A DNA stretch of 64,000 nt from Arbacia lixula (lineage: Eukaryota > Echinodermata > Echinoidea > Arbacioida > Arbaciidae). Both the position numbers and the translations under genes were made by a program. Where the stretch lies: contig OZ022586.1 of assembly GCA_963669155.1 (NCBI GenBank), positions 19,576,307 through 19,640,306 of the forward strand, in the 5' to 3' direction. The notes below the pieces were generated by a model. That model was given only the letters and a program-made list of their open reading frames with translations, was not told the origin of the DNA and searched no databases. Shown here piece after piece: positions 1,369 to 56,131 of this stretch; the stretch's first letter is position 1; every line of letters starts with the position of its first letter.

Positions 1369-2286
1369 TTAATCCTTGTAATCAATCCACTTAGACGTGC
1401 CTTTTTCTTTTGACTGTAAGCACACATCCGTGCCTCTAACGAAGATTTTCGTAGAAAGCCCGAGCTCTTTACGCATCTTGTAGGCTTCTTTCGCGAGGAA
1501 AGCGCGACGACTTTTCATGGATGGTGGGAGATCCGATCGCATGGTGATCCGTGATTGGGGTTGGGGCATGGCGCTATCCGGAAAGGCTGCAGTCCCGGCT
1601 CGATTTCCCCGCCCGCCTTCAAATGCAGCCAAAACGGCGTTTCGATCCTTCATGTAGCAGAACCGCGCTATGATTGGGACGGGTCCACGCTGGCTGGTCT
1701 GATCACCCGTTCCTCGTCGAGGTAGGCGATGAGCATTGGCGATAGGAATAGCAGCTGCATCTTCAAGGCCAAGGGAAACAAATACATCCTTCAGGACCGT
1801 ATACACATCTTCACCTTCAGCTTGATTTACACCATAGAAGAGGAGATTAGATTTCCGATTGTGGATTTCCAGAGAAAGGAGTTTAACTTCCAAAGATTTC
1901 ACCATCTTTTGTGTTGAATCTTTCACTTCGGGTAACTTCTGATCCTCAATTTCTTTGATTTTCCCTGCGTTGAAGTTCACACTTACTTCTAGGTCGGTAA
2001 ACCTTTTATTGATAGCGGCCAAATCAGTAGAGATGCTATCAAGCTTGGTAGAAATGGATGCTTTAAACGCAGAGATGTTATTATAGAGGTCAGTTAGCGT
2101 AATCTCCTGAACCTCAGGAGGGCTGTCGATTGGGTCGTCCGATGAGCCATCAGCACCCCCAGCTGCCGCGAGGGCTGTTGCCTGATGATGAGGAGGTTTC
2201 GAGGCAGCACGTGTGCGTGTCTTCTTCCTGGTCGCGTCAGCCATGCTTCCAGCAACAGATGAAACAAATTGCTTTAGTATTTCCAC
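1369..2286 (-). CDS. LINE ORF1 protein (coiled coil plus RRM-like L1 ORF1p type)
   Basis: An intact 305-residue frame. About residues 65-135 form a coiled coil (LTDLYNNISAF, LDSISTDLAAI, heptad spacing). Next comes an RRM-like part (NLLFYGV, IPIANAHRLPRR, PIIARFCYMKDRNAVL). The C-terminal part (RSDLPPSMKSRRAFLAKEA) resembles the RNA-binding end of L1-type ORF1p (Transposase_22 family). ORF1p coats element RNA. It precedes ORF2 in the same orientation with about 750 AT-rich bases between. The element is antisense within an NRBP1 intron. Its 5' end probably lies near 2440, where the adjacent foldback begins. Confidence 0.8.
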   Translation of the reverse strand: MEILKQFVSSVAGSMADATRKKTRTRAASKPPHHQATALAAAGGADGSSDDPIDSPPEVQEITLTDLYNNISAFKASISTKLDSISTDLAAINKRFTDLEVSVNFNAGKIKEIEDQKLPEVKDSTQKMVKSLEVKLLSLEIHNRKSNLLFYGVNQAEGEDVYTVLKDVFVSLGLEDAAAIPIANAHRLPRRGTGDQTSQRGPVPIIARFCYMKDRNAVLAAFEGGRGNRAGTAAFPDSAMPQPQSRITMRSDLPPSMKSRRAFLAKEAYKMRKELGLSTKIFVRGTDVCLQSKEKGTSKWIDYKD

Positions 2287-2452
2287 AAAAATAAGTTAAT
2301 TGGTTCACAAATTATGATGAGAAGGATGCCAAATAAGTTCACTCCATAGAAGTAAATGATAAGATGTAAGAGTGTACTCAAAATCGAAAAAATAGTGGGT
2401 GAAGGCAGAGAGCTGTCAAACTACACGTGCGTTCGTGCCGGCGCCATGTTGA

Positions 2453-14300: not shown

Positions 14301-17300
14301 TGAGCAATGCTAATCAATAATTTCAATAATCCCTCAAGCATAAGAGCTAATTGTTCAGGTCAAGGTACTCCATATATAGACCCATTTGCCTGGTAATAGT
14401 GCTTTTAACCCTTTTTGTGCCATTGATGCATATTTTTTTTTACAAGTAATATATCCCCATGATTCTAAATATGTTACTAAATATATCCCTAGTACATAAA
14501 TCCCATAGAATCCACAGCTTTGCTGCTAGTTAAGAAAATAAAGGATGAAACTTGCGAGTATAAAGAACTGTTACACAGGTTACTTCTAATGATCAGGGGA
14601 AAAGTTCATTCAAAATTTTTTGGGGCTTCTTTTTAAAGCATATTGGCCGTTTGGCTACAATTTCACATTGTGTCTGGGAATTTGGGGGGCTCTTTTAATA
14701 ATATCAGGGCTCTTTTAAGTGTTTGGGAGGTCAAAATCGCCCCAAGCCCTTGTGTATTTTCCCCCCTGCTAATGATAGCCTGGTTTCCAGGCTGTTTAGC
14801 ATTTTTAATCAAACTATTCAATGAAGGGGCCTGGATGCTGTAGACTAATCACACTTGCTGGTTTGCTCATCGGCTTGCTGAGAAAAGAGGAAAATAATGA
14901 AAGAGATTGCATTAGAAATATGATGATGATAATGATTGTAAGGATGGTGTTGAGGATGATGGATTTCCATAATGTTCATTATGATTGCTATTGTGACTTA
15001 GACATTTTTTTTTCCCTTTTTGCAGAGTATCTCAGGTGCCTGCCCTGGAGTTGGAGAAGTTTCTAGAAGAAGTCAAGTGAGTACCAATGATGCCAGGGTA
15101 TAGGTGGCATAATGTATCATCATCTACAGTACCAGCTGTGGCTCTTTAAATTGTTATAGATTGGCTTATCCATTGCAACATGGTATAAATATGTTACCTC
15201 TTCGCTTGTTACATAAATCACAAATAGCTTTGTGTTATATATTCCAAAGACCACCCAAATTAAGACATTTCATTTACAAATAAAGACTGGACATCCAGCA
15301 CAGGGCAAGCTTTCCAAAAATCACTTTGTACAAATGTCCAATATACATGTAATGTTGGTAACGGGACAGACTAATTTGCAACAATTGGGTCTGTCATGTT
15401 ACCAACTTTACATGGGAAACTTGTACAGGGTTATTTTGAAAATAGAAGTTAATGCTCTGTTCATTGACAAATTTTGATTTGTACAATCTCCATTGAATAA
15501 TTTTTTTTCCAGGTTTCATGGCCAGTGTGTAATGTTCCCATTAACTCCTCCCCCCTCTACAGGAATGGGATCTACCCTTTGACGGCCTTTGCCATGAAGA
15601 GGGCCAACCCTGCCAAGATGCGGCCCCAGAGCCCTGAGACACAGGAGTCGGTCAAGAGCGCCACGCCCGAACCCATCGACATGGAGAGCAGAAAGATCAC
15701 CATGATGCAATGCCAGGTCAAACAGGGCAAGGAAGGAGAGGAGAATGACAACCTACATGTGAGTAGCAGGTGCTGGGTGCTAGGTCAGGCAAGGTTACAA
15801 TTCTTCAGCGTGGTATAAAGTCAATGAAAGTATGAGGATAGCTGGTTTAGTGATAGTTAATCAGGGCAAGGAAGGAGAGGAGAACGACAACCTACATGTG
15901 AGTAGCAGGTGCTGGGTGCTAGGTCAGGCAAGGCGTACATATACACTTCTACATTGTAGTGCAGCAATCAATGTACATATGAGCACCACTGGCTTGGTGA
16001 TTGGTATACCTGTACAATATTTTCTATAGTATACTTGTCAGTGTACAACTGGCTTGGTGATAGGTCAGGCAAGGCATACATATACACTTCTACAGTGTAG
16101 TGCAACAATCAATGTACATATGAGCACCACTGGCTTGGTGATTGGTATACCTGTACAATATTTTCTATAGTATACTTGTCAGTGTACAACTGGCTTGGTG
16201 ATAGGTCAGGCAAGGCATACACTCCTTCAATGTGGTATAATGTCAGTGTATGTATGAGTACTGCTGGTTTAGTGATAGTCTAGCAGGGCAAGGAAGGAGA
16301 GGAGAGTGACAACCTACATGTGAGTAACAGGTGCTGGGTGCTAGGTCAGGCAAGGTATACACTCCTTCAGTGTGGTATAATATCAGTGTATGTATGAGTA
16401 CTGCTGGTTTAGTGATAGTCTAGCAGGGCAAGGAAGGAGAGGAGAGTGACAACCTACACATGAGTAGGGGGTGCTGGGTGCTAGGTCAGGCAAGACATAC
16501 AATCCTACATAATAGTGCAACGGTCAGTGTACGTTTGAGTACCACTGGCTTGGTGATAGGTCAGGCAAAGCACACACTTCTAAAATGATAAAGGATCAGG
16601 TCAAGTAGGGCAAGGAGGGTGAGTCTTCTTCTTCTTCTTAAGATAAGTTTATTACAGGTATCATCGCTCTTCTAATGCCATTATCTATCCATGACGTACT
16701 GTAGGTGACCATTCTGTGCCAATCATCACTGTTATGGGAGTATTTGATTATTTCTATGGTTGATTTCCCACTACATTCTATGATTTGCTTGAGATATGTA
16801 CATGTAATTCTTTACCTTCCTTTTCCTCTTTTCCCCTCAATTTTTTCTCTTTGCCTTCCTCTTCTTTTTCCCCCTTTTATCTATCCTGTCACATGATCAG
16901 TGGGTGCTTGGTACAATGTGGAACACTCCTACAATGTGGTATACTTGTCAGTGTATATACAGTGCAGTTGGCTTGGTGAAAGATCAGGCAAGGTATACAA
17001 AATACTGGTATTATTGAGGAAGATCCACATATGAGTAGGATTGTCACTGGATATGTTGGGTAGTCTTCATATACATGTTTGTGTAGGAAGGGCTTGATGA
17101 TAGGTCAGGCAAGGCATATTGATATACTGGTACTGGTAGTATCAGGAATCATCTGCATCTAACATCCATCAAGATAGAAAAATGGCCTTTGCGGTTAGGT
17201 GGACATGAATGAAGCAGTAATGTGTCATTCAATAGCTTCGTCTTATTTTCTCCCTCGTCCTGACCAGTTGGAGCTCCTACTGAGGTTAGATGACACCATG

Positions 17301-33139: not shown

Positions 33140-33720
33140 CCGGTCAGTGCCGTCTGGATGGCCTGATGGAAGCCAATGAGAAGGCACTTCCCTGAGCCAG
33201 TTTGGCACAACATTTAAGACAGATGAAACGATGGTCTATTTGAGTTTATACTGCTGTAGGAGAATTGATTGATTGAGGATAACCTTCAGGATGAAATCCT
33301 TTGAGAGTCATCCTCTTAGAAGACGGGTCCTAGTTGTCATCTCTTTGAGACCTTTGATCTTTTTGAGACGGTCTTACAGTCGCAAGGTTTTGGCTAGGGC
33401 CGTACCGTAGGGGTGTACTTGAGTTTATGCTGCTATAGGGGGACATCCTCAGAGACCTACTGCCTTACAACTCGGGTTCTAGCTGTCATCTCTATGGGAT
33501 GGTACCACAGGCGCACAGTTAAACAAATAATACTGTTGTAAGAGGACTGCCTGCTTCAGACGACCAATCAGGATGAACTCTGCCAAGCCTTTGAACTTGG
33601 ATTGGACAACTCCAGTTCTCATCACTCTGAGAACTAACCCAACGTGCCACTGTAGAACCGTCCCAAGGCTTGAACCAAGGCCGTATGTTCTACTTGAGTT
33701 CATAATCCTGTAAGCTGGAC
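33140..33720 (-). pseudogene. Tandem relic copies of the last MDC1 exon
   Basis: The true exon end (aagatgaactcagct.., agtttgtactgctttagtag, attctatttgag) recurs downstream of the stop. A frame at about 33500-33610 still reads GLAEFILIGRLKQAVLLQQY, close to the real SAEFILTGILKQEVLLKQY. Weaker traces (ttgagtttat/ttcata, tgctg, aggatgaa) occur at about 33236, 33420 and 33695. Spacing is roughly 150-200 bp. These lie in the probable MDC1 3'UTR. Confidence 0.7.
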
Positions 33721-33843: not shown

Positions 33844-35785
33844 CTATTTGAGTTTGTACTGCTTTAGTAGGACTTCTTGCTTGAGTATCCCTGTCAAGAT
33901 GAACTCAGCTGAGAGCACTGGCAGACCACCCTTGGACAGACCGGCCCACAGCTGCTTGTCAGCCTCACACGAGACAACGACTGTCTGGGGTGTGGCCTGC
34001 GAGGGCGTCCTACTCAGGAACTGTAGGATATGATGTAAAGAAAACAATTACAGATTAGTCCCAAGTTGAATTCATATTTCCCTTTATTATGAAGATGGTG
34101 TAGAGGAGACTTCTAACAAAATGCTCTACATTCATTTTGTCAAGATCTTTCTTCCATTATGAATACAGACAGGTTGGTTACTAAAGACTTTCTTACAGTA
34201 GGGTACAGGTAGCATAATCATCGTAGATCCTTTTGCCATTGGTACACCAAAATAGGTCCCTCACCTGCTGAAGCTCAGCTCCCTCTCTTCCTTTCACCCC
34301 TCACCCCCTCATAATAATGATGCTTACCTCCTCCTGATAGGGATCTTATCTCCCCACCTGACCTCCCCTCTCCTCCTCCCCCCTCCCCATCTTTCCCTCC
34401 TCCACCTTGTAATATAGATCCTTACCTCGGCCCCAGCACACTTAATGATGTCTTTCATCTGCTGAGAGTCTGGCTTGAACCCCTTGTTAACATGGATGCG
34501 GTAGCCGGTCAGCTTACCTTCCTCTCCCCCCCTCTTGCACCCTCAACCTAACCCCACCACTTCCACACCCCTCCTCCACCCCTCCACCACCCCTCCACCA
34601 CCCCTCCCCTACCCCATCCCTACTCCGTTCCTCCCCCATCTTTGCCCAAGTAATGAGGGGGCTTACCTCCGCCCCTGCACACTTGATGATGTCCTTCATC
34701 TGCTGAGGGTCTGGCTTGACCCCCTTAGTAACATGGATGCGGTAGCCGGTCAGTAGAGGGCTAGCCGAGGCCTTGAGGAGGGAGTCAGAGAGAGAGAAGC
34801 CGTACTGCCTCTCAGCCCCTCGGTCTTTCAGCTGGTAGGGACTAGGATCTGCAGACAAAGTGTCACATCACAAACATAAAGTAAAACATTTGACTGCGCA
34901 TTGTCGACTGGCATGCTAGTATGCTCTCCTGCGTAGCACTGAAGTATTGCCATAATCACATATAGTAAGATTTCATCATCCTTTATCTGGAAAACTTGCT
35001 AATTGGCTATGACGTGCAACTACATTGAGAACGATCTGACATATACTATCATTGTACCAAGTTTGAACAATGTGACTTTGACCTTGGAACTTTGACCTAT
35101 TTGACCCCTAATAAAATCAGATAACTGTCTTGTCATATCTTATCTTATCATTGTACCAAATTTGTTATTTTCATTGTAACAGGTAGTAGACTTCAGAAGA
35201 CTTCAAAAGTTAAAACTTGTCAACTTGTCAACTGGACTTACTTTAACATCAATCAATTGCTGCCAAAGATCAGTCGGCCTGATGAAGTATCCCGGATAGG
35301 ACGTGAAACGTTGCATTTCATAAACAAAGGAAGTCCAGTTGAAAAGTTTTAACTTTTGAAGTCTATTATCTACTACCTGGATGAGTGAGAATATACATAG
35401 ACAACAGGTCGTAATGGTAAAGACTATGGGACCTACATCCCATGTGCCTTCTGCCATGATCCTGGGTTCCATTCTTGTGTGGCATTGAATGATACCAGGC
35501 AGAAATTAGCTCAACATAATAAAATCGCTAAAATCAAAGACAATCTGGGCTCTTTAATAATTACAGCTCATATCTATTATAATTCGATACCCTTCGTCTT
35601 TAAAAATCGTTCTTACCAACAAACATCTTGGACGACTTTGACTTCTCTATCCAGTCTGGCGTTATGATGGTGACTCCTCTGGAAAGGCAGCAGAGGAACT
35701 TGACGGTGCGTCTGACCTTGTCGGTGATGAGATGGGTGCAGTCATGGACGGAGTCTACCAGCTCCCCACCTAGCGTCGTCACAGT
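33844..35785 (-). CDS. MDC1: MDC1 exons 17-19: tandem BRCT domain
   Basis: Exon 35785-35617 has LGGELVDS, THLITDKVRRTVKFLCCLSRG and PDWIEKS. RRTVKF keeps the Arg and Lys that hold the phosphopeptide in human MDC1 (RRTVKFLCAL). Exon 34848-34667 has YGFSLSDSL, LLTGYRIHVTKGVKP and MKDIIKCAGAE. Exon 34020-33844 has TVVVSCEADKQLW, LPVLSAEFILTGILKQE, and the stop at 33844-33846. The order and the WIEKS and LSAEFIL motifs fix these as the two BRCT repeats at the C-terminus. Confidence 0.93.
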
Positions 35786-38700
35786 CTAGGCAGAAAGGAA
35801 AAGGAATAAGATCAACAGGGTGCTATTCCAAAATGTATTAACTAGATTTTTCTCCCAATCAGTATTTAGAAATCTCTCCTCACTTTCCTCCTCATTCCTC
35901 TCGTAAGTTGTCTCCTAACTTTATTGAAATTTATGTAAATCCCCTCCTCACTTGAGAGAAAACTTACAAAAAAAAGTTAGGAGGAATTTTTGAATATTAC
36001 CCTTGATAAAGAAGGTATTCTGATAAAAAAAATAGATCTCAATAGAAGCATTTAAGTGTGAGAAAAACAAATATATATTTTCTTTGGAAATATAAATAAT
36101 TGTAATCAATTGAGTAGCAAACATATGCTTTAGTTCAGAGTAATTTGAAGGACTTCCACGATTTGAGAGCATTGCATGAATTGCATGAATTGCATGAATT
36201 GCATGAATTGAATGAATTAAATGAATTAAATGACTTGAATGAATTAAATGAATTGAATGAATCAAATGAATTGAATGAATTAAATGACTTGAATGAATTA
36301 AATTAATTGAATGTATTAAATGAATTGAATGAATTGAATGAATTGAAAGAATTGAATGAATCGAATGAATTGAATGAATTAAATGACTTGAATGAATTAA
36401 ATGAATTGAATGAATTTAATGAATTGAATGAATTAAATGACTTGAATGAATTGAATGAATTGAATGAATTGAATGAATTGAAAGAATTGAATGAATTGAA
36501 TGAATTGAATGAATTAAATGCCTTGAATGAATTAAATGAATTGAATGAATTAAATGAATTGAATGACTTGAATGACTTGAATGAATTAAATGACTTCAAT
36601 GAATTAAATGACTTGAATGAATTAAATGACTTGAATGAATCGAATGAATTGAATGAATTAAATGACTTGAATGAATTAAATGAATTGAATGAATTGAATG
36701 AATTGAATGAATTAAATGACTTGAATGACTTGAATGAATTAAATGAATTGAATGAATTAAATGACTTGAATGAATTAAATGAATTGAATGAATTGAATGA
36801 ATTGAATGAATTGAATGAATTGAATGAATTGAATGAATTAAATGAATTGAATAAATTGAATGAATTGAATGAATTGAATGAACTGAATGAATTGAATGAA
36901 TTGAATGAATTATAAAGTGGAATCTAAGAATTGCTGATTGAACCTTTTGCCATGAGGGGTCCATGACACCCGTGAACATGACCTTTGGCTTGACCTCGCT
37001 GCCCCTCTTCCTCAGCGATGGGCTGGCCCCTCCCAGCTGGGCCTGCTGGTTGCTACGGCCTCTCTGCCTGGGACTGGGGCTGGCTGATTGGCTGCTGCTA
37101 GGGCTGGAGGCGGAGCTTGGGCTGGGGGCGGGGCTAGCCAGCCTGGCCTTCTTGGATGGGGAGGGGGGAGGGGTTGCCACTGCTGCTGCTCCTCTCTTGG
37201 CTCTTGGTTTAGGCTGAGATTTACAAAATATTGACAAGATAGATAGTCGTCTTTCATTGGATAACTTAGTAGCAGGACCATACTCATCAATAGGAATGAC
37301 ACAAGCTATTTTCATATCATCAGGAAACACACATAACTCTAAACACTGATGAAGCGAGCGATATGATATATGCAATTTTTCATAATAACTTTTATACCTT
37401 TATCATCTTAACCAGGACTTGTATTATTGTTTAATATGGCAGGGAGAGAGATCAGGATAATCATGGACTATATCATGACTATATCACTGATTCAGTACCC
37501 ATTTAGATGGTCCAGTAGATGTGGTAAGGTAAATGCAAGAAACATTCAAGCTCACCACTTCAGGTTCCTCCTTCTTGCTGCGAGATGTTCTGCTGCTTCC
37601 AGACTGCTCAGGTTCTGTGACAGTCAGAGTAGTTCCTGCAGAGTTACGTCCGCTCTTGCTTCTTCCGGTAGTCTTTGTTTCCTCAGACTCCAATTTGCCA
37701 CTGTCCTGGGTCGCAGCTGCAGACAGGCCTTTGGCAACAGAAGGCCTTCCTCGTTTGGTAGCCTTTTCTGATGATGGCGCATTTCGAGCATCTTCCTTCT
37801 TCTTTGAGAGGCTAGATAACGACGCATCAGCAACTGAACTCCGCCCTCTTTTCGCCCCATCACTAGGAACTGTTGCCTGGTTTGTTGGAGAAGGGGCTCT
37901 TTGTCGTTTTTGCCTTGCAGTCCGCGTCACAGGTTGGGGTGTGGCAAAGACACCCTCATCCCCACCGGTCTTTGCTCCCTCCTCCTCTACCACTTTCTGT
38001 CTTGCTGACTTCCTTCCGCCCTTGGTGGGCTTGTCATCATTCACAGAGCTCTCGGCTCCAGAATTCAGTGCCGTTGTCCCTTCAACTGTTCTCCTTCTAT
38101 CACCTTTTAACCTTGCTCCTTCTTGTCTATCACTTTCCTCTTGGCTGTTGGTTGTTGCTCTTCTACTCCGTCTCGTCCCACTGGTTTTCTCACCCTCTTC
38201 AAGGCCATCACTTGTAATTGTAGCTTTTCCTCTGCCTCTAGACTTCACCTGGGCACTTGTATCTAATATTTTTGGAGTCTCTGTATCGCTTAATTTACAA
38301 ACGTCGCGTTCTTTGGTTGAATATTCTATTTGATTTGTGCTTCTCGTTCTTCCTTTTTCCGGAGCATCCGCTTCCTTTGCTGCTGCTGTTGTCTTTGTTC
38401 TTCCGCTCCTTGCTGATTGGGGGTCTGCAGAACTTTCTGCCACTATTACCCTTTGAGATCTTCCACTTCTCGTTCCATGTCCACCACTTTCTTGTGAGTC
38501 GGCTTTCATTTCTGTTCTACCTCTCGTAGTCCTACTACTTCTCACAGCTTGTTCTTCACAGGATTCCTTCTCTGCCACAACTGGTCCACTGTCCTGCTCC
38601 TTGTCATCTCCCTCAGCTGACGTCTTCCTGTTCCTGGTGCCTCTTTGTCCTCTCCCGCCCCGCCCACCTTTCACTCCTGGTACTTCCTCCTTCTCCTCCA

Positions 38701-41700
38701 CTACCCCTCTTTGCAATCTCCCACTTCGCCTTCCCTTGGCATCACCTTGCAAACTCTTCTCCTCTGCCGCACCTGTAGTGTCTGGTGTCCTACTTGAGCA
38801 ATCAGTTTGATCAGTGCCTTTCCGACGTCCACTGCTCCTGGTCGGTCTACCGCCCACCTCCATCTCACCCAAGTCCTTGAGGCTGGAAGTCGTTGATGAC
38901 ATGGAACCAGTTTCATCGCTATCAGCATCGTTCTGGAGCCCACCAACCGTGGTGGAATCTAACCCTGCTCCTGGTAGCTCAACCTGGGCATCTTTTGATT
39001 GTTTCCCTTTCCTACCGATGCCTGTCAGCTTCCGACCCAAGTTCTTGAGTGCCTTTAGCTTTCCTCCTTTCTCTTCCTGGCCTCCTCCATCCCCTTCTGT
39101 CTTAACAGATGATATACTTTCAACAGAAGTCACGCTACTATCAGACATTTTACGTTCACCCTCGCTCTTCGCTCCTGTCCTTGGATGTGCTTTATCAAAT
39201 TTCTTCTTCCTGGTTGGGGCAGCATCTACAAGAGTGAAGGTTTGTTTTGCTCCATCTGTTTCTTCCTCCTCCTTCCCTCCTCTCCTCCTCATCCCTCTTC
39301 TTCCCCCACTCTCCTCTTTCTCCTGAGGAACCAATGGTTCCCCCTCCTCTGGCTCGCTGCCCCTTGTAGCTCCCCTTGGTCTGCCCCTACGACCACCACC
39401 TGTCTGGGCTTCTATGCGTGCTGGTACCAGTATCTCTTGCGCCCCCTCCTGTTTCGCTACCTCTCCTGCTCGACTCCGCTGGGAGACTCTCTTTCCTGCC
39501 TTCTTCAAACCACCATCCAATCCCCCTCCTTCAGGAGTGGCCGTCTCCTTGCTCACGCCCGACTGCTGCGAGGGCCTTCCTCTACTTGTTCTTCCAGCTG
39601 GTGTCTCATCCTCTTTAGGAGCCGCCTTCCTGTTACCCCTCTGAGAGGTCCTTGCTCCCTCACTCTGCACCACAGGGACAGAGGCACTTCCAGCAGCGCC
39701 AGCACCTGTGCCAGTAGTAGCGTCAGCACCAGTTCCTGTGCCAGGACCAGAAGCGCTTGCCTGCTTGTTCCTGCTCGCCTGCAGAGATGGCCTCCCTCTT
39801 GTCTTCCTGCCTGCTGAAGCCTCCGCCTCCTTTTCCTCCTTCCCCTCCACCTTTGGTTGGTCTCCCCCCTCCCCGTCTTCCTCCCCAGGAGCAGAGGGTT
39901 GGAAGGTGACCCTCCTGGCCTTGGTGGGACTCCTCTCAGGCTGCTGTGTCTGCTTGAGGCAGGACCTGGTCGGAGACGGAGTGTTGAAGACCGGAAACCT
40001 GGTAGCTGCAATCTCCTGGAGCTCTTCTTCCTGGCTGTCTGGCACCTGCTGTGAAGAAACGCATTGAACCCTCTCAGTACCAACTAATCATAGTCACATA
40101 GTCAATTTCAACACAGTGTATTGCCTGTGAGACTAAAAGGATTAAAAATGCCACAAAAACCATCTACAACATTTTGATCTAGGTACAGCAGGGTTGGCCA
40201 TTTTTCATTTAAACAAAAACGTATTGGATTTGCATCATAAACCCTGCAGCACAATAAATGTTATTTTTGTACCCCTGTGAAAAATAAAAAAATTCAACCC
40301 ATTCTGCTGCTTTTGCAGGAGGGTATACAATCTTTGATTCAAGAAGGTTCGTTACTTTTAGGGCTGCAAAGAGTGTATAAGAGCGGTTGTCCACAATATA
40401 GAGACAACTAAGTTTGATTGTAATTAATGCTTGCAACAGTTTGAATAACGATGGATTGTCTGATGCATTAAAAACTGTTTGGAACTTTTAGGAACAAAAT
40501 CACAATTTTAAATCCACATTTCTTTTCTTTATGGGAAGGAATAACTTCTATTAGCTATCCTTGCATGATACTTACTGTGTCTGTTTTTGTTTGGGTACTC
40601 CCCTCCTGACTTTCATCTGTTTCCATGGCAACATCTTCTTCTCCATAAGGCACTCTTTTCTCAATCTCTTCCTCAACCTTATTATCATCTTTCCTCGCTT
40701 CTTTTTCCTCCTGACCGTATGGCTGCGTGCACTCAATCTCTGTGGTAGCACCGTACGGCTGCGTGCACTCAATCTCCGTGGTAACACCGTATGGCTGAGT
40801 GGCGTCTATTGGTGTTTCGACTGCATCCGTTTTTGCATCTTCCTCAACTGACGTGCCATAAGCTTGAGTAGCTTCGATTTCCATTTCATCTTCATCCTCA
40901 TGCGCTTTTCGTCCCAAATTACCTTGCCTCTCAATATTTTTCTTTCCATCTCCTTTCTCTTCGTCTCCCATCTTGTAAGTGAGAAAATATTCCTGGGACT
41001 GTGTCGCTGCATCGTCCCCACTTTCATCGCAGGAGTCGGTAACCATGTCAACAGCTTGGGTTGGCTCATCAGCCAATGAAGGATTAATGTCATCCTTCTC
41101 CTCTCCATCTCCATCTTTCTCCTTTTCTTCTTCATCTTCAGAAGCAGCTCCTGGAGACACTGCCTGAGTTGGTTCATCAGCAAAATTTGCCTTTCCAGCT
41201 AATCCATCTTCCTCTACATCAGTATCATCATCATCTTCTGCTGTCACAGGAACGGTTGCCATATCAACAACAGCTCCCTGGGAACCTGATGCATTTGTAT
41301 CATCATCATCATCATCATCATCTGTTGCTATTGGTACAGTGGCAATGTCATCTGTTGAAGCAATCAGATATATTATCATACATAACAGAGAGTCTGTGAT
41401 AGGGATGATGCACATATCAGACAAACTTGACATTTGCAAATTGAGAAAATGCTGAAGCAATGACAAGAGACAATTCTATCACTTCACAGTTTTTATGAAA
41501 AATGTTGATATCTTTCTCTCTATCTACATGTATATTGCTTTCTTTTTCTCCATCTTGCTTGCTTTCTCTCTCCTTCTGTCCCCCTCTCTCGCTTTCTTCC
41601 CTGCTAATTTTCTCTTGCTTTCTCTCTGTCTCTCTCTATCTTGCTTTCACTCTCTGTCTCTCTCTCTCTCCCTCCTACATACCATGTTTAAGAGGAATGG

Positions 41701-44700: not shown

Positions 44701-47700
44701 TGGGGTATTGTATCGTACCTTTCTTTGATGTTTCTTCTTCTTCCCAGTCATTCAGGCCCACTGCCTGGGTGGGGGCATCCATTAGGCTTTGTCTTACATC
44801 GTCTGCATCTGTGGGGCACAAAATAAGAGAAGGTTCATCAAGTGGCATTCCTTGTCTCAAGTCCTGTGCAGCGCAAATCAACGCTTTGTGAGCCACATGC
44901 GTATTTATTCACAAATCACAGACACAAATTATGTTGTTAGCCATTACATCTGGCACACAATAGGTTAAGATAATGTACAGAAGCTCTCTGTAGCCCACCT
45001 GAAAACGATGATGATAATAATTGTGACATATTTTACTGTAAAATGTTGGAATATTTTACGGCCTGATCCTTAATGCTTCAGTTCCTGTTCATTATTCCCC
45101 TCCCCATGTTTTCTTATCAAAGAAATTCACCTATAGAAATACCTGAAAAGACTTGTTTACGAACTAGTTATAACGAGCACGAGTATAGAGAGAACCCTGT
45201 TATTACGAGGACATTTTGTGGGTACCAATTTTTCTTCCATGGACCTTAGTGTATTCTGTTATCATTTAAAGACATTAGCTATAGCGAAATTTCTGCTATA
45301 GCGAGGCAAATTCTCAGGCCAAGAATAAAGGAAAAGAAAGGAAATTGACCCCGTTATTATGAACACTCCCTTCAGCCACGCCGCCCAGCGAGCACAACAC
45401 AACACTGATCACACACACTGTGAAAGAATCCACACACACACGACCACACATGCACAAGACCACATTACGTGCGTCCGGTAATGCACGCCCCGGCCCCGCG
45501 CCCAACCATCAACACAGTCACGTACGTATATGGCAAACTAGAGCCTCTACACACATGTGACACTGCGCGTGTATGACCGGCCGTGCATGAAGATTGTGTT
45601 CAATGATCATTCATTGTTTACACGCAATTAGGCCAGCAGCAAGGCCGGGTAACTGAGCCTCCCCGCTGCTTCATTTGTCGGTAGACGGAGACATTGGAAG
45701 TGTCATTTATTTACATTTTCAACTGTGCTGTTTGATATTTTAGTGAATTTTTAGCTAGTGAATTCAGTTTAGAATGCTTGCAAAGCCATTAAAAGTTTAT
45801 TACAGTCTTAGCGGAAAATATGTTATTGTGTAGTCCTATATGTGCATTTGTTTCTGCATGTATTGATCATGTACTGGTATAGCGAGCAATCGGCTATGGC
45901 AAGGAAAAAGTGTTGGTCCCGAACCCCTTGTTATAACGGGGTTTGCCCGTATACGTAGTCAGTTACCTGTGTCAGAATCCATGTCAGGGTCATATGCCTG
46001 CGTTGCCATATCGTCGGATCCTACAGCCAGAGTTGCTACATTGTCCACATCAAAATCTGACCCTGCATCATCTACAGCTTGGGTTGCCATGTTGTTGACT
46101 GCCTGGGTTGCCATGTTGTCAACTGCTTGCGTTGCCATGGTATTGACTGCTTGTGTCGCCATGTTGTCAACTGCTTGGGTTGCCATGGTGTCGACAGCTT
46201 GTGTTACCATGGTATCGACTGCTTGTGTCGCCATGTTTTCAACTGCCTGGGTTGCCATGTTATCGATTGCTTGGGTTTCCATGTTATCGACTGCTTGGGT
46301 TGCCATGGTGTCAACTGCTTGGGTTGCCATGTTGTCAACTGCTTGGGTTGCCATGTTGTCAACTGCCTGGGTTTCCATGTTGTCAACTGCTTGGGTTGCC
46401 ATGTTGTCAACTGCCTGGGTTTCCATGGTGTCCAATGCTTGAGTTGCCATGTTATCGACTGCTTGGGTTGCCATGTTGTCGACTGCTTGGGTTGCCATGT
46501 TGTCGACTGCTTGGGTTGCCATGTTGTTGACTGCTTGGGTAGGGGCGGCTAATGCACTAATGTCAAATGGACCTGAAAAATGAATTGATAGATATTGCAA
46601 TATTATGTCATTGTGGTATGGCAATATTTGTGTTTAATCTGTACCGGTCTATCAGTGGATTGGACTTTGCTAGCAGAGGTAAAAACAAGAAGTGAAGATA
46701 GAATAAGGTGGAGGTGAATAGGTGCCAACACCGGGTGCGGGATGGGACCTGATCCATGTTGCACAAGGGCGGAAATCGCTCCACGAAGGTAGGGGGGACA
46801 TGTTTTTCATCAAGAAGTCGCTAAGCGGGGGTGGGGGGGGGGGGGGGGGGTGATGATGATATTTTAGGGGTACAGGAGTCAGGACCGAAAATAGTGGGGG
46901 GACATTTGATATTGTGTCCCCCCCCGTCCCCCCCCCCCCCCCCCCCCCCGGGATTTCCGCACATGATGTTGCATAGGTTTTCAATTATTTTCAGTTGCCA
47001 TCAATGGTGAATACCATAGCAACAGGTGCAACATTGGCTGTTGTCATGGTCGTTACCATTGATGGTAAGTTACAATGATTGAAAACCTATATGCAACGTG
47101 GCCCTGATGATTGATTGAATGAATAACTCAAGAGGCTCGAGACACAGAAGGATGGAAGAGAAGGAGAAGGGCAAAGAAGGAGAGATGTGGAGCAGATATG
47201 AGAGACGAATGTAGATCTCACCTGTCTCATCAATGTCTGTATCATAATCTGACTCCCCAACAGCAGATACATCTGTGAAGATAGAAAAAGGTCGAAACAT
47301 TGAAGTCATGTTGGAATCCCCATCATACATATGATATCACACTTTGAAGATGGAAATTCCCTTTTTTCATGTTTTTCCCCCTTAATCGTAATCCGGCTGG
47401 AGCACTTGGAGTATTTGGGGGATAAGTTAGGGCAATGGAATGCATCATGGCTGATTATCATGGATATAAATCTAGGCCTTGAGCACAGACCCTCTATCAT
47501 AGTGCACAATAAAAACAAAGTGATTATCTTGAAAGGATCATTGATGAGAGCAAGTATGTTTGTTATGCCGATATCATACTTCTTCAATCTTGAACTTGAC
47601 AAAACATGGCCCATTTTCATGAGGTTTACAGCCTACATTCATTCCAGTACAACTCACCGCTCTTCTTCCTGAATGAAGTCTGCGTCTCCGGAATGAACGA

Positions 47701-50700
47701 ATCGTCCCCTCCTTTCACTGAATGGGAAATAAAAATCAAATTATTAAATCAGAAGATTAAAAGAATAAATCAATGGAAATAAAAGATGAAAATTAAAATA
47801 TAATGATTCAAATAAACAGATTGTACAATTAAATCAAAAGACTGTCTACGATCATTATCAATGGCCCATTTGTACCTGTACAAAAAAGTAATGGTTAACA
47901 CGTTCTCTTCTGAGCCCGCGTATATGTGGGCTGGCTTTTTTTTCCATTCAGATATTAAGCAGCATGACTCCCATACAATCTGCTGTTCAGTAAATAGACA
48001 ACAAGCTATGAATAAACTTTTAATATATTATGGGGCATAATCAAGCCATACCCATTTAATAACAGCAGTTCCAAAATTTTGACATCCTAACTGGACCAGG
48101 GTTTGTGAGCAACAAAGTAATGAAAACAAGAAGATGAAGAAGAATAAAAAAGCAACTGACCTGGTTTGTGTGGCGATTCCTCCTCGTCAGACTCGGCTGC
48201 AAACACCTTCCCACCACCGAGACGTCTTGGTGTCTTAAGACGGAGCTGCTGAGGGCGGGGCGACTCTGAGAGGGAGTCTGTGAGGACCTTCTGAGTTGGC
48301 TGCAACAGATCATTAATATTGAAGCTGGAATCATTCTCATTCTCATCCTGGCGTGGGGAGACGGGTCAGGCAAGCATACAGGATTGGAGGTTGGAAGAGG
48401 AAGGAAGAGGAAGGAAGAGGAGTGGAGGAGACATGGAGAGGAGGGGGAAGCAAGGGAGGACAGGGGGAAACAATAAGCATAGATGATACAAAATGAATGA
48501 ATAACAAATGAATGATAAAAAGATAAATAATAAGGAACGAATAATTAATGAATAATGAATAATGAATGAATAATAAATGATGCATAATGAATTAATGGAA
48601 TATCATATGAATCTATCAAAACAGAGAAAAATACTTCATATATTTGCAGTGGCTATTGTTAAGCTAAGGCCCCCGCCTTATAAAGTGTTGCGATTGATAT
48701 GAATCAATCACAATTTTTTATAGGGTGGGACCCTGATGTTATGAAGTGAACCCAATTAACTACATTTCGCATTATACCTATAACAAAAAATAGTTTTGTC
48801 ACTGTTTATAACTATACAACTTTCCCTATTGATCTGATCCCCTTCCAGTTACCAGTCACCAGTTACCAGAGTAACTTGTCCTTTTCGGTATTACACCTAC
48901 CTCTTGACTAGTCTTTGCATCCAGTCCTGGACTCTCATTCTCTGGTGGTTGCAGCATGAGTTCTGAGTCTGTGTCTGAGCCAGAGTCCATCACATCCTAG
49001 GCATACAGATAACCAAGACAGGTGTTAGAATGTTGGACACGGGGCCCATATGACTAAGTGCTGCATTAAATATAAGCAGAGAAAAGATAATGGCATCCAA
49101 TAACTTCGTTGCAAAGGCACAAATGTCATGCATGGTCTTGCTTTCCTCTGCTTTTTCCCTACCATATTGATCAATTAATCACATTACTACAGAGAACAAC
49201 AGCAAACCATCAATTATATCATCTGTGATATCTCCGCAAAATATTCAATTCTTATTCTTTAAAATACAGTGTTTTAACGCGTCGTGCAGTAAATTGACAA
49301 TCACTTCCTGGGTATGATGAAACAAAACAAAGTTCAGGCATATAAAGCAGCCCCCGCAAATATATAAATTCCCCCCACTGGCACCCCTGATCACAAGCTC
49401 AACGCATGATGGTTGGTATCCTACCTCCTCATCCTTGCACAAGCGGTACTGGCACTTCACATCCCCAAAGATGAGTGTATCATCTTCCTTCAGTTCATAT
49501 CGCACTGACGGCTTCAGGAACATCTGTGGAAAACAACAAGTCAATGCCATAATAACATTTTACTCATTTTTTTATATTAATTTTGTATCATTTGAACAGT
49601 GGTTAAGAACAATGTTTTTCCAGGAGGCTCTGCAAAAAATATTGACAAACATGAATCAATAAAACAACAGCCATATGTGATTTATAAATCTAGAATGAAG
49701 TTATCTCACAATTAGTGTATCAACTACACAACTGTAAGTTTATTTTCTATATTTTTCATGTTTTACACAGGTAGGGTTTTGTTGTTAAAAAAAGAATTGA
49801 CAAAAAGGAAGAAATGTGCATACTTCCAACACAGAAAAGTACAATCCAAAACTTTTTACAAAAATTGATAATGGCTAAAATAGGCAATTGGCTGCCATAT
49901 ACAAAAATAAAATTACATAATAAATGAGCTGGCAAAATAACTGTTTACCTTGCCTCTCCTTGTCTTGTTTCTGCTTTCCAAGTCATGGATGAGATGTATG
50001 TCGCCCTGAACCTCAATACAGGCATGCTGCTTGGACAGGGCCTGTAGAAAACAAGGCAGTATAGTAGATGGTCATTACCTGTAGATACATATCATCACAA
50101 TCTACATCTGATCTAGAATTTACATAACCACATGGAGCACATCCCACAAATAGGACGTTAAATAAAGGTCCTGGGTATAGAAGAGGCACATTCTATGCAC
50201 ATTAAAGAGCCCACTTCACTTCTCGATTAAAATGCAGGGTAAAAACCTGATGGGAGTCGACAGCATAGATATATAATCAAGTGTTTGCAAAGTGCTACAA
50301 AGCATTTCCTGCTATATATCGTGCCTATTTGTATTGTATTATAAGAAAAAGATGAAGAAGACTTGCTGCCTAATGCACTGCACAGTGTAGGAGGAAGCCT
50401 AAATAAATCTATTCATAAAATGCATCCATACCATGCAGTAACTAGGACTAAAAACAGACAAGTACTTGATGCTGTGGTTAGTCATTATGGAAAGTGCTGC
50501 AGCAAATTCAGAACATTTCCTCAAACAGGAGCACATAATCTTACCTTGAAGGCCAAGTGGACAGAGTTGCTCTCATGTCGACCAATTGAATTTTCTCCTG
50601 CAAGAAGACAAACAAGTAATCCTCCAGTCAGAGATAATTTCATTTTGTAAGCAGTACCTTTCACTGCAATTTCATGAGCAATTTTGCTTAAAAGTTAGCG

Positions 50701-52795
50701 GCTCGCCAATAACTTTGAACAACATGAACCCCTTGTGTGCTGGACAAAATTGTGCGTGGTGGGATTTGAGTGTATGAATGATGAATAAATTATTTTTTGC
50801 ACCATTAATCTTGGCTGAACTTGCTAGTAGTGCACAGGGAAGCATTTAGGTAGATGAATAATGTATATGACTTGCTGACAGATGAACAGACATTCCAAAA
50901 ATGATTTGCATTAGAGGCATAACACAGGTACAGAGCACGGCATTACAAACACATTTTCAACAATAAATCAGTTAGAAAAGATACTTGCACAGTATCACAT
51001 CAATGCATAAAAAATAAGCCATTTTTATAATGTATTCAAAGTAATTCATACTTCCTCTTTAAATGCAGTAAGTGTAGTAATTACTTTTACCTGTAGCCCC
51101 TTCATGTACGTCGTGATTCAAATTCAGTGCAGTAGGTGCAATGCGCTCTGAATCGATATTAGTTGTTGGTGGTTCTCAGTAGTCTGTAGTCAACAAACCT
51201 TTGACAAGCTATGTGTATGAGGTTACCATTACAACCAGTATAGTATGGAAGACATGCATAAAATGGTCTATTGCAATGTGATTTTACCTTCATAGATGGG
51301 GTACTCAGTTACTGCAGCGTCTTTTTGAGCTAACACATGTAAATAGGCGACCTGTGTCACAAAAGATAAAAAAACATACAGGACAAGGATAATTCAATCA
51401 GTTCCTGATTCTGGAGATGTCCGTGAGAAAACCAACGGGCTGTGTGACATAAAATAAACAGTAATTCTATTGATACAACTCATGATTACTCAGATCGTAA
51501 CTCATAAGTACACACATGTATGCAAACACTTGAAACACAGTGAAATGTCCGTCCATACATATCACTTTACCCTGTCTCATTCTATATAAATACATAAAAG
51601 CAGTTTAGTTCCAAATCAAATTAAACAAGAGGAAATACAATGGCTTAATTGAAGTTCTGTGGATATTTGGACATAACACCACTTCCTGTCTTCTTTCAGC
51701 TTGCTCATTGAAAGAAAAGATCAATTCACTTTCACTTCCTGGTTATCAATCTAATTAAGGGTTTCCAGTATACTGGGTGATTCAAAACACACACCTCATT
51801 AGTTCTCTCAAATTCTTCATCAAACACTCTACACTGCAGCAATGGCAACACTTTAGCAAAAGATATTAAGGAGAATGAAACCTTGATAAATGCTGGATTG
51901 CGTATAACCACTGGAGGGGCTACCCTTGATAAATAAGACTCATAAATAAATAGCAAGTTTAATTGATACATTCTGTACCTCCCACGTTGAAACTACTGAA
52001 CATCTGTTCTTTGAATAACACTTAGTTTGGAAAGTATGGGACTACTTTGAAAAGAGATTGTTTGAAAGCTGCAAATTAGTATTAAAATTAACTATGGAAA
52101 ATGTTCTTTTCGGAATGACTCCTATTTCATATAATAGAGCCTTCAACAAACTTATCATTTGGGTGAAATGGATAATATATTATGACATAAAATTGGCTGG
52201 AATTCGCCTTATGTCACCAAAAAAAATCTTTAATGAGGTTAAATAATTATTTCTTGTATGAGAAAGCTATTTCATGTGAAAATATGAGGCAAGTTTCTTT
52301 TGAAAAATGTTGGTCAAATTTCATTAATCTTTTTAACTAATGTTGAAAACATTTTTAATCGGTTTGCTACATGCTGTTTTGAACCTTTATCGCTAGTTCT
52401 CTACATAAATTGTTATTATATCTTTGTTTATGCATTTTGTACTGTAAATTATTGATTTCATGACAAGATTGTATATTATCAGTTATTGTTAAACACTCAG
52501 CTGATAATTTTTGTACAATGACTATGAAAGCAAATGTAAATTGAAGCTTTATTGAATAAAACATCCTACTGTGGGGGAAAAAATGAAAAAAAAAAGTTAA
52601 AATGATCAATATCTCTCAAACTTTGGCTCATTTATTTCTCTGAGGTTCAGCATGTATTCAATTCAACTTATTTATTAATATTATCAGGGTTTCACCAGCC
52701 TTTAAGCTCACCGGCTTTCTCTCAGCTCCCCCTCCGCTCTCCTCCTCGGTTTCATCATCAGAGTACCAGATGGCCTGAGTGGCATCCATCTCCAT
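33844..52795 (-). CDS. MDC1: MDC1-like mediator of DNA damage checkpoint (19 coding exons)
   Basis: Coding exons in order of transcription: 52795-52712, 51351-51288, 50597-50545, 50041-49949, 49523-49425, 48996-48901, 48347-48161, 47717-47658, 47272-47222, 46572-45967, 44808-44719, 44404-44331, 41827-41683, 41351-40576, 40048-37556, 37213-36944, 35785-35617, 34848-34667, 34020-33844. They sum to 5,769 nt (1,922 residues plus stop) with every junction in phase and GT/AG borders. Domain order: N-terminal TQAI, FHA (about 29-131), acidic region with SDTD motifs, TQ octapeptide array (about 263-440), acidic TQxY region (about 570-826), basic Ser/Arg/Gly region (827-1657), tandem BRCT (about 1735-1922). 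The plan and length match vertebrate MDC1 (about 2,090 residues in human), which binds phosphorylated H2AX through its BRCTs and recruits MRN and RNF8. The vertebrate PST repeats are replaced by other sequence. Function is inferred from homology. Confidence 0.92.
34425..34510 (-). pseudogene. Relic copy of MDC1 exon 18 with an intact donor
   Basis: It nearly repeats the 3' end of exon 34848-34667: LTGYRIHVNKGFKPDSQQMK, then DIIKCAGAE and |gtaagg, against the real ..HVTKGVKPDPQQMKDIIKCAGAE|gtaagc. The copy starts abruptly at LTGYR, where no acceptor with a polypyrimidine tract is seen. It lies in the intron after the real exon. Confidence 0.75.
36170..36915. repeat. 9-bp minisatellite (ttgaatgaa)n in an MDC1 intron
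   Basis: About 80 copies of a 9-mer with variants ttaaatgaa, ttgaatgac and ttgaaagaa. All units keep a period of 9, so plus-strand frames read (LNE)n and minus-strand frames read (HSI)n or (FNS)n for hundreds of codons. Confidence 0.95.
36944..37213 (-). CDS. MDC1: MDC1 exon 16: linker and start of BRCT1
   Basis: Ninety codons. PKPRAKRGAAAV and a Ser/Pro/Ala-rich linker lead into VKPKVMFTGVMD, matching the first strand of the human MDC1 BRCT (VLFTGVVD), where T-G contact the phosphoserine of H2AX. The exon ends AAAAG|gttcaa, a weak donor. Beyond it the frame stays open into a 9-bp minisatellite. Confidence 0.88.
37556..40048 (-). CDS. MDC1: MDC1 exon 15: 831-residue basic Ser/Arg/Gly exon
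   Basis: A single 2,493-nt exon from acceptor cttcacag to donor GTG|gtgagc. Near its start are SCLK and, 14 residues later, RRVTF, a possible PP1 docking pair. The rest is low-complexity, rich in R, G, S, T, K and E, with four RGRP AT-hook-like cores (TRGRPS, SRGRPS, RRGRPR, KRGRPS) and many RSGR/SGR..R motifs. In position it replaces the Pro/Ser/Thr repeats of mammalian MDC1, which bind nucleosomes. Its antisense frames are long only because of composition. Confidence 0.88.
40576..41827 (-). CDS. MDC1: MDC1 exons 13-14: acidic region with TQPY/TQAY and SDTD motifs
   Basis: Exon 41827-41683 holds ATQPC and SESDTDIETD. Exon 41351-40576 begins with Asp runs and holds PTQAV twice, ATQSQEY, EATQAYG, DATQPYG and ECTQPYG twice. 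In vertebrates TQxF motifs of MDC1 are phosphorylated and bound by the RNF8 FHA domain; here the +3 residue is Tyr. The acidic SDTD motif resembles the CK2 sites that bind NBS1. Confidence 0.88.
41515..41680. repeat. (CT)n-rich tract beside an MDC1 donor
   Basis: A CT/CTTT-rich stretch on the plus strand (GA on the transcribed strand's RNA) directly after the donor of exon 41827-41683. Non-coding. Confidence 0.8.
42139..44285. mobile_element. 2.1-kb non-autonomous DNA transposon with TA target site
   Basis: Left end cagtcaaacctgtctatagc (after TA 42139-42140) and right end ..gccaggtttgactg (before TA 44284-44285) are inverted copies. Subterminal ggccgctata and 'atagacaggt' repeats are found at both ends. 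TA duplication and CAGT-like ends fit a Tc1/pogo-type element. Inside are AT-rich sequence, a CpG-rich block at 43640-43800, and no transposase frame. It sits in the MDC1 intron between exons 41827 and 44331. Confidence 0.8.
45184..45953. mobile_element. Decayed DNA transposon
   Basis: The right end (ccccttgttataacggggtt, tgcccgta) and its inner part (ggcaaggaaaaagtgttggt) resemble the inverted left end (gagaaccctgttattacgag, gtaccaatttttcttcc). ctatagcgag motifs occur on both sides. Interior 45360-45560 is GC-richer. MDC1 intron. Confidence 0.5.
45967..46572 (-). CDS. MDC1: MDC1 exon 10: array of about 20 TQ octapeptides
   Basis: One 606-nt exon (202 residues). After ISALAAP there are twenty consecutive TQA(V/I/L) units with an 8-residue period, consensus (D/N)(N/T)M(A/E)TQAV, then one decayed copy (ATLAV) and a last ATQAY, followed by DSDTG. 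Each TQ is a potential ATM/ATR site. The period is exactly 24 bp, so it grows as a minisatellite without breaking frame. Codons vary between units, so it is not a very recent expansion. The single exon begins and ends in the right phase for its neighbours. Confidence 0.92.
46826..46950. repeat. Facing poly-G and poly-C tracts
   Basis: G tract 46833-46850 (18) and C tract 46928-46949 (22) lie about 80 bp apart and could pair as a hairpin. 'gcggaaatc' at about 46770 and 'gatttccgc' at 46951 flank them, suggesting a small element with G/C-rich inner ends. MDC1 intron. Confidence 0.7.
46968..47097. mobile_element. 130-bp palindromic MITE
   Basis: gttgcataggttttcaatta on the left is inverted as attgaaaacctatatgcaac on the right. 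The similarity continues to ccatcaatggt / accattgatgg. MDC1 intron. Confidence 0.8.
48901..52795 (-). CDS. MDC1: MDC1 exons 1-6: TQAI head and FHA domain
   Basis: Exon 1 starts at ATG 52793-52795 (MEMDATQAIWYSDDETEEE). Its TQAI matches the human N-terminal TQAI, whose Thr is phosphorylated by ATM and bound by the FHA of a partner MDC1. Exons 2-5 encode the FHA fold: AYLHVLAQKDAA, NSIGRH (the Gly-Arg of the phosphothreonine site), LSKQHACIEV (the S-x-x-H motif), DLESRNKT (equivalent of DxxSxNGT, with the usual Gly changed to Lys), and LKEDDTLIFGD. Exon 6 (48996-48901) carries SGSDTDSEL. A minus-strand acceptor at 52811-52817 precedes exon 1, so there is a 5'UTR intron. Confidence 0.9.
51974..52600 (+). 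pseudogene. 5'-truncated LINE, C-terminal end of ORF2
   Basis: The frame from 51974 reads CTSHVETTEHLFFE, an in-frame TAA at 52016-52018, then HLVWKVWDYFEKRLF and ends at 52246. The pattern C..C/H..ETTEHLFxEC..V..FW is the C-terminal zinc-knuckle region of L1/Tx1-type ORF2 proteins; the TAA falls at the usual Cys. An A-rich tail is at 52573-52593. It is dead and lies antisense in MDC1 intron 1. Confidence 0.65.
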
Positions 52796-54703: not shown

Positions 54704-55010
54704 AGGGGGAGAGGTTGGTGATAAGGGGGAAGGGGATAGAGCAAATTTATGATTTGCGAGCGAGTGTGAACCATGGACCTAGTTGGTCAATTTGTACGTG
54801 TAAACAAACTAAAAATACAAGTCGCGCAGTGCACGACCAGTGAACTGAAATATCATGCTGTGCTGATGCAATATGACTATTGATAACCCTGTGCATAGCC
54901 TTCTATACACACACTCCCGTTATGATTGATGATTCTGTTTATACATGTACTGCATGTAGAGACCACTGGAGAGACAGGGCGGCTGCATTAACCCACTTCT
55001 CCTGTTCAGG

Positions 55011-56131
55011 ATGTTGCCATCGCTAGTTCTTTATGATGATCAAAGGAAAGGTTGGAGAAACATGGTTCGTTTTGGTCATCCTACTGTAGCTCGCTGCCAG
55101 CCACAAAATGCGGAAGGAAGCTTACGGTTACGGGAGAGTTCAGACGTGGGAACGATCACCGTAATGGCCGCACAGGTTGACAATGCGCAGTCGACTCTGC
55201 CGGCAAGCTGCGAGTTCGGGTCGACGAAGTACCTGGCGATGTGCGGGCTGGCAGGGATCCTTAGCTGCGGCTTGACCCACACTGGCATGGTGCCCCTAGA
55301 CGTCGTCAAGTGTCGACTGCAGGTGGACCCCGCTAAGTACAAGAACACCCTCAATGGCTTCAGGGTGACCGTAGCGAACGACGGAGTGCGTGGACTGGCT
55401 ATTGGCTGGGCGCCGACTGCAATAGGGTATTCGCTCCAGGGTATGTTCAAGTTTGGATTGTACGAGTTCTTCAAGATCAAGTACTGCAACGCGTTGGGTG
55501 AGGACTTGCGTACCGATATCGGACCTGGGTGTACCTTGCGGCCAGTGCCAGTGCGGAGTTCTTCGCGGACATTGCTCTGAGTCCCATGGAGGCCGCTAAA
55601 GTCAGGATGCAGACTCAGCCGGGATTCGCGGGAACGCTACGGGAGGCTGTCCCGAAGATCTGGGCCCAAGAGCGTTTCAGCGGGTTCTACAAAGGGCTGT
55701 ATCCGCTCTGGTTCCGGCAGATCCCGTACACCATGATGAAATTCACGTGCTTCGAACGGACAGTGGAGGCGCTCTACAAGTACGTGGTGCCCAAACCTCG
55801 AGACGAGTGTAGCAAACCGGAACAGCTGGTGGTGACGTTCGTCGGAGGGTACATTGCAGGGGTCTTCTGTGTCCTGGTGTCTCATCCCTTCGACTCCATC
55901 GTCTCCAAGCTAAACCAGGACGCGGGCAGCACGATGCTCCAGGCGGCCAGGTCACTTGGTATGGCGGGGCTCTGGACGGGGTTTGCGCCGCGGGTCGCCA
56001 TGATCGGTACTCTGACCGCGCTCCAGTGGTTCATCTATGACTCCTTCAAGATCTACTTCCGGATGCCACGCCCACCCCCAGCGGAGATGCCTGGGAGTCT
56101 GAGAGCTGAGCTACAGTCCAAGGCTGGGTAG
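55011..56131 (+). pseudogene. SLC25A3: Mitochondrial phosphate carrier (SLC25A3-like), frameshifted, no introns
   Basis: The first part (from ATG 55011, or in-frame ATG 55164) holds repeat 1 with PLDVVKCRLQ at about 55294 and then GWAPTAIGYSLQGMFKFGLYE. After NALGEDL, near 55505, the frame shifts by one base. The second frame carries YLAASASAEF, PMEAAKVRMQTQPG, RQIPYTMMKF, PKP..ECSKPEQLVV, PFDSIVSKLNQ and LTALQWFIYD, ending in MPRPPPAEMP with the stop at 56129-56131. All three carrier signatures P-x-(D/E)-x-x-x are present; the first two have the basic K. SLC25A3 imports phosphate with a proton for ATP synthesis. Apart from the one-base loss it looks well conserved, so an assembly error in a live gene is possible. 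The acceptor-like ttctcctgttcag right before the ATG argues for a 5'UTR intron rather than a simple retrocopy. The N-terminal presequence is unlike the mammalian one. Confidence 0.85.

Follow-up and report, generated by a model that had tools for sequence, protein, structure and literature searches.

The locus raises the question of what MDC1 would do with twenty near-identical TQ octapeptides encoded in tandem by a single exon, and which protein, if any, would read them. We approached it from the predicted gene in which the exon lies, within a window of 64,000 nucleotides (the whole stretch of DNA that was analysed). The features of the gene are collected in Table 1.

The gene around the array exon

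Our gene model, a prediction from sequence, joins 19 exons into a protein of 1,922 residues. All 18 introns are GT-AG, the phases are consistent and there is no internal stop; the model is weakest at three donors, those of exon 1 (the sole stop-free choice of three tried), exon 15 (one of five in-phase options) and exon 16 (a weak match). Because an acceptor-like site directly precedes the ATG, a 5' non-coding exon upstream is probable. Exon 15 is long and rich in basic and acidic residues; the PST repeats of MDC1 are reported from mammals only (PMC11014961).

The sequence-only reading had named the gene MDC1, and the name was upheld by the FHA and BRCT domains, both of which matched MDC1 chains best among solved structures. 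For the FHA domain, which Pfam recognised at E 3.7e-11, MDC1 chains, presumably human and mouse, were the best 4 of 15 PDB matches (best E 1.8e-12; next protein 2.4e-5). For the BRCT domain they were the best 4 of 7 (best E 8.8e-52), followed by PAX-interacting protein 1 (4.2e-36). The alignment also retained the phosphothreonine contacts of the FHA domain (G-R, S-K-x-H and N), and the S-K pair corresponds to Ser140/Lys141 of Chk2, two residues that PMC11884936 names. All four gamma-H2AX contacts, G1899, R1933, K1936 and E2063 (numbering of PMC11014961), were identical in the BRCT alignment. An N-terminal FHA domain and a C-terminal tandem BRCT domain occur in all 119 metazoan MDC1 proteins of a published survey (PMC11014961), and by both of these common features the predicted gene is MDC1.

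Table 1. Features of the predicted MDC1 gene, with positions counted along the window
Feature	Position	Strand	Remarks
Exon 1, MEMDATQAIW, N-terminal TQ with Ile at +3 (T6)	52712..52795	minus	gene model
FHA domain, exons 2-5, residues about 29-131	49425..51351	minus	G55, R56, S70, K71, H73, N92 kept
Exon 6, SDTD motif (NBS1-type), residue 138	48901..48996	minus	gene model
Exon 10 (array exon)	45967..46572	minus	606 bp, phase 1-1, residues 263-464; predicted splice sites
20 consecutive octapeptides xTQA(V/I/L)(D/N/E)(N/T)M	46064..46543	minus	last unit ends DDA
Decayed unit ATLAVGSD, Q lost	46013..46036	minus	T codon 46033
Terminal unit ATQAYDPD, aromatic +3 (RNF8-type)	45983..46006	minus	T codon 46003
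APTQAV motif, exon 11 (T478), resembles first array unit	44759..44776	minus	
DEPTQAV motif, exon 14 (T629)	41158..41178	minus	
DEPTQAV motif, exon 14 (T665)	41050..41070	minus	
Four TQ(A/P)YG motifs (T729, T752, T764, T776), RNF8-type cluster	40714..40869	minus	
Tandem BRCT domain, exons 16-19	33844..37213	minus	PDB matches; gamma-H2AX pocket residues kept

The BRCT region carries traces of local duplication. The 3' part of exon 18 (LTGYRIHVTKG...KCAGAE and the donor) is present twice on the minus strand, at 34421-34512 and 34662-34753 (92 bp, 91.3% identity), and the second copy, which reads LTGYRIHVNKG, looks like a relic because scanning for acceptors gave none that fits it. The last BRCT exon also has a partial, degenerate copy (GLAEFILIGRLKQAVLLQQY) at about 33480-33620, minus strand. 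In the intron just past BRCT exon 16, an 18-bp minisatellite occupies 36171-36911 (41 copies, score 1111); it is crossed by long open frames and is non-coding in the gene model. ARAGORN found no tRNA or tmRNA over the window, and Rfam gave no match at the gathering score.

The predicted protein contains three strict SDTD motifs, at residues 138, 462 and 543 (exons 6, 10/11 and 13), together with two looser forms; the motif at residue 462 arises where the array exon is spliced to exon 11. A survey of MDC1 proteins assigns SDTD motifs for NBS1 to vertebrates only and gives invertebrate MDC1 TQxF repeats only (PMC11014961). If the host is an invertebrate, as is likely, strict SDTD motifs in its MDC1 would be an exception to that survey.

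The array exon and the classes of TQ site

The predicted borders of the array exon are a good acceptor (aattcatttttcag; tttttcag) and the donor CAG/gtaact. Its product starts with GPFDISALAA, runs through the octapeptides and ends in a short tail with ATLAV and a final ATQAY. The earlier description of about 20 in-frame TQA(V/I/L) units in one exon, with one decayed unit and a terminal ATQAY, agreed with our count, which was exactly 20, with both outlying units on the C-terminal side of the array. The exon borders predicted here coincide with the coordinates that the earlier description gave. The period is 24 bp (T codon of the first unit at 46540, of the last at 46084), and Tandem Repeats Finder reported 46077-46540 with 19.3 copies, 85% matches, 0% indels and a score of 641.

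Across the 20 units, T, Q and A of the core were each present 20 times. Position +3 was V in 18 units, L in one and I in one, while the residue before the threonine was A in 15, E in three, P in one and V in one. The residue after V/L/I was D (16), N (3) or E (1), and the last two positions were N (14), T (5) or D (1) followed by M (19) or A (1). Among the 20 units, 15 were distinct as DNA and 11 as protein, so the array is not a recent perfect amplification. Unit-to-unit identity was about equal over lags 1-10 (0.84-0.87), and this flat profile, together with the 15 distinct DNA units, spoke against an assembly artefact or recent amplification in the form of a simple collapsed or copied block. 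A search with the consensus unit, allowing up to 6 substitutions, found no copy in the 64-kb window beyond the array exon.

With 21 TQ and no SQ in 202 residues, the array exon has the density of an SQ/TQ cluster domain, which is defined by at least three SQ/TQ per 100 residues. It encodes 31 acidic residues, no basic residue and 3 glycines. TQ is also frequent outside the array, where residues 132-1700 contain 17, compared with about 6.6 expected from composition.

The whole predicted protein has 38 TQ and 13 SQ, and we sorted the TQ sites by their +3 residue, although this position predicts the FHA partner only weakly (PMC4037201). Val, Ile or Leu stands at +3 in 26 of the 38 (the 20 array units, T6, T181, T478, T554, T629 and T665) and Tyr in five (T453, T729, T752, T764 and T776); the rest have other residues (7), and none has Phe. 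Outside the array, a hydrophobic +3 follows 11 of 18 TQ against a background of 13.5% (p = 3.5e-6), and merely 2 of 13 SQ. Tandem Repeats Finder reported a 36-bp repeat at 40714-40801, inside the TQ(A/P)YG cluster. No array unit has an aromatic +3, and in the array exon only the terminal ATQAY does. The array thus belongs to the aliphatic class, and an RNF8-type cluster exists apart from it.

The N-terminal motif ATQAI (T6) shares its aliphatic +3 with the array units. For this reason, the dense phospho-switch of the earlier reading can be specified further, as a switch with a candidate reader, MDC1's own FHA domain. A recent copying of the array from the N-terminal exon was rejected, as 4 of the 5 codons at -1 to +3 of the N-terminal motif have a third base unlike that of the array consensus. 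The APTQAV and EPTQAV motifs of exons 11 and 14, which are closest to the first unit (APTQAV), may be the likelier seed. Exon 14 also has two look-alikes that lack TQ, ATVPI (in DDIATVPIA) and ATVPV (in DMATVPVTA).

A candidate FHA-docking array and its possible readers

From these features, the exon probably encodes a docking array for an FHA domain of one protein or another. We tentatively put forward a more specific reading, possible but short of probable: a multivalent FHA-docking array switched by ATM/ATR, and read most likely by MDC1's own FHA domain in trans. After a break, the BRCT pair of MDC1 would bind gamma-H2AX, ATM/ATR would phosphorylate the array threonines, and each pT-Q-A-(V/I/L) octapeptide would then form a full ligand for one FHA domain. 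The phosphorylated units would most likely be read by the MDC1 FHA domain of another chain. With one FHA domain and about 20 ligands per chain, such contacts would build hyperbranched assemblies rather than pairs, with the kinase as the on switch and a phosphatase as the off switch. In the AB-f case of Flory, hyperbranched growth proceeds without gelation; here gelation would occur only if FHA-FHA contacts supplied extra cross-links. An FHA ligand comprises at least 6 residues around the phosphosite (PMC13067819), so the 8 residues of each unit should suffice. Being symmetric (phase 1-1), the exon would let splicing include or omit the array.

The closest parallel is human MDC1, whose N-terminus reads MEDTQAIDW and whose self-association rests on one N-terminal site, threonine 4. 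Both proteins have an N-terminal FHA domain and a TQA-aliphatic motif at the extreme N-terminus (ATQAI here, TQAID in human), but where human MDC1 has one self-docking site this protein has one plus twenty candidate sites in tandem. How much valency matters for self-association is hard to test in human MDC1. Twenty near-identical copies beside a separate RNF8-type cluster would set the two functions apart and make valency directly testable, and if self-docking is true, array-bearing MDC1 may form large assemblies where the human protein pairs. A bolder version, which we regard as doubtful, is that the self-docking phosphosite was multiplied about 20-fold, turning a kinase-controlled dimer into a hyperbranched polymer; the animal's repair foci would be built by MDC1 self-assembly, with the number of units tuning focus size. 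Previous work has shown that in human MDC1 the FHA domain binds the phosphorylated N-terminus of the protein itself (PMC4157861) and that dimerisation is regulated by N-terminal phosphorylation (PMC8841529). A proposed analogy is TIFA, in which pT9-FHA contacts drive phase separation (PMC10865109): there too the phosphothreonine of one chain is bound by the FHA domain of another to give a higher-order assembly, although TIFA uses one phosphosite, T9, and acts in another pathway.

Several points count against self-docking, or against docking in general. The single FHA domain per chain would be limiting, and most phosphosites would thus stay free or be taken by other readers. Human MDC1 has been reported not to be liquid-like at breaks (PMC8514019, citing Kilic 2019). 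Another FHA role is on record, since the FHA domain of Drosophila MU2, an MDC1 orthologue, binds the MRN complex; self-binding goes unmentioned in the excerpts of that report (PMC2672170). Array units may also lose TQ without obvious penalty, because ATLAV and the two exon 14 look-alikes lack it. In a single-sequence AlphaFold2 prediction, the array exon appeared as long helices and not as an extended ligand (mean pLDDT 67, pTM 0.25); a disordered ligand could refold upon binding.

The chief rival to self-docking is that the array docks another FHA protein of aliphatic +3 preference, most plausibly a Chk2-type kinase, and clusters it for trans-autophosphorylation as Rad9 does Rad53; we hold this to be unlikely. 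The FHA domain of Chk2 favours Ile or Leu at +3, which speaks for such a reader, as do the spare sites that a limiting MDC1 FHA domain, at one per chain, would leave. In yeast Rad9, 6 SQ/TQ within 69 residues bind FHA domains of Rad53, and several of them must be phosphorylated (PMC13067819). The Rad9 SQ/TQ cluster domain and the array both have clustered PIKK sites able to load several FHA-bearing molecules, but the Rad9 sites are dispersed and are read by Rad53, as opposed to 20 near-identical tandem units here (PMC13067819). What favours MDC1's own FHA domain over a Chk2-type kinase is that the aliphatic motif also stands at the N-terminus beside the FHA domain, as in human self-docking (PMC4157861).

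Constraint on the array protein

The sequence-only reading had taken the conserved register with varied codons as a sign of selection on the protein. We compared 19 of the 20 units with the consensus, omitting the 20th, whose last two codons depart from the pattern. The 19 units contain 18 distinct single-base changes, 10 silent and 8 replacement, over 5 silent and 19 replacement sites, which gives a ratio of 0.21; the two-base change of GTC to TTG was scored per base, so one step was counted as Val to Phe though the unit reads Leu. In the five other frames, for which 18 shifted units were used, the same ratio was 1.97, 1.97, 1.14, 0.52 and 2.88. The homogeneity of the units is owed partly to duplication, an effect that counting distinct changes reduces but does not remove. 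The T, Q and A codons had 5 distinct silent changes and no replacement, and all 60 keep their amino acid. When 18 distinct changes were drawn at random in 20,000 simulated draws, at least 10 were silent in a fraction of 0 to 0.0002, and no T/Q/A replacement occurred in 0.0005 to 0.00115 (transition biases 1 to 8), figures that ignore gene conversion between units and treat as independent changes that are not wholly so. The changes between units thus support constraint at the protein level, as had been proposed, and this constraint is strongest on T and Q; a lack of constraint on TQ, for which we checked, was not what we found.

Replacements were confined to -1, +4 and +5, apart from conservative ones at +3. 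FHA specificity is reported to lie at +3, +1, -2 and -3 (PMC4157861). In the array, Q at +1 is constant; M at -2 is constant in 19 of 20 units, a constancy that is uninformative because just one codon specifies Met. The MDC1 frame and one plus-strand frame run without a stop through the 480 bases of the array, and the other four have 1, 2, 4 and 12 stops. We rejected another frame as the true product, as constraint there is weaker or absent (0.52-2.88) and the MDC1 frame joins the neighbouring exons in phase.

These results bear on two explanations that need no docking partner. One is that the phosphorylations act in bulk, as negative charge, a kinase buffer, a threshold or a timer, with no reader at all. 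With its acidic residues, its 21 TQ and its lack of basic residues, the exon product would be strongly charged if fully phosphorylated, and a bulk role requires T and Q alone. It would not demand the invariant Ala at +2 or the aliphatic residue at +3, both of which are kept despite silent changes in those codons, and we consider a bulk role quite unlikely.

The other is that the array is a neutral minisatellite without particular function, which slippage or unequal exchange has lengthened within a disordered part of the protein. The 24-bp period in codon register without indels would fit such growth, as would the decayed unit that follows the array, and an exon of phase 1-1 may change length or be skipped with the frame intact. 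Neutrality is improbable in view of the low ratio in the MDC1 frame compared with the other frames, and of the absence of any replacement among the 60 codons for T, Q and A.

Ubiquitin ligases, folding and comparable proteins

Rather improbable, in our judgement, is an array that recruits RNF8- or Pellino-type ubiquitin ligases as an enlarged TQxF region. DEPTQAV, which occurs twice in exon 14, is similar to the human motif DEPTQAF, and this likeness would suggest that an aliphatic residue may replace an aromatic one and the reverse; the array exon, moreover, finishes with one ATQAY. In human MDC1, four pTQXF motifs recruit RNF8 and Pellino (PMC11884936). Like that cluster, this protein has several ATM-type TQ in a disordered region, namely the four TQ(A/P)YG and the ATQAY; unlike it, the array repeats its motif 20 times at a constant spacing of 8 residues, with Val, Ile or Leu at +3, whereas the four human motifs (T699, T719, T752 and T765) are unevenly spaced (PMC11884936). 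The RNF8 FHA domain prefers Tyr or Phe at +3 (PMC4037201), and neither occurs in any of the 20 units, yet Tyr does occur at five other TQ of the same protein.

It is very improbable that the octapeptides fold, as a long helix or, in the manner of the T4 gp5 needle, as a beta-helix. The AlphaFold2 single-sequence model has helices at 5-101, 110-172 and 175-192, with pLDDT of 70-90 for 90 of 200 residues, 50-70 for 97 and lower for 13, at a pTM of 0.25 and with no alignment behind it. Pfam Gp5_trimer_C also matches (E 2.5e-9; score 37.7 bits, cut-off 30.9), gp5 being a phage spike protein, but we take this match as the product of the 8-residue period common to both; the exon encodes just 3 glycines.

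Returning to the docking array, the plant protein BCP4 offers a further comparison, as it is MDC1-like and has a variable number (3-10) of TQx-hydrophobic motifs (PMC11014961). Unlike this MDC1, BCP4 has no FHA domain, and the excerpts of that survey describe no tandem period (PMC11014961). A tandem TQ array in MDC1 is not described in the portions of the open-licence literature that came up, which is weak evidence of novelty; orthologues of the array-bearing MDC1 may sit unremarked in public databases.

Other parts of the window hold features separate from the MDC1 gene. At 54960-56131, plus strand, two overlapping open frames are mitochondrial-carrier-like, with Pfam Mito_carr in both; the frame is broken once near 55500, which points to a retrocopy or a sequence error. 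Probable pieces of a non-LTR retrotransposon lie at 1-681 and 1369-2295, minus strand, with an endonuclease-like domain (Exo_endo_phos), upstream of which a frame of 308 codons, unmatched in Pfam, appears ORF1-like by eye. A tandem repeat of about 140 bp is present in 5.6 copies at 15723-16506.
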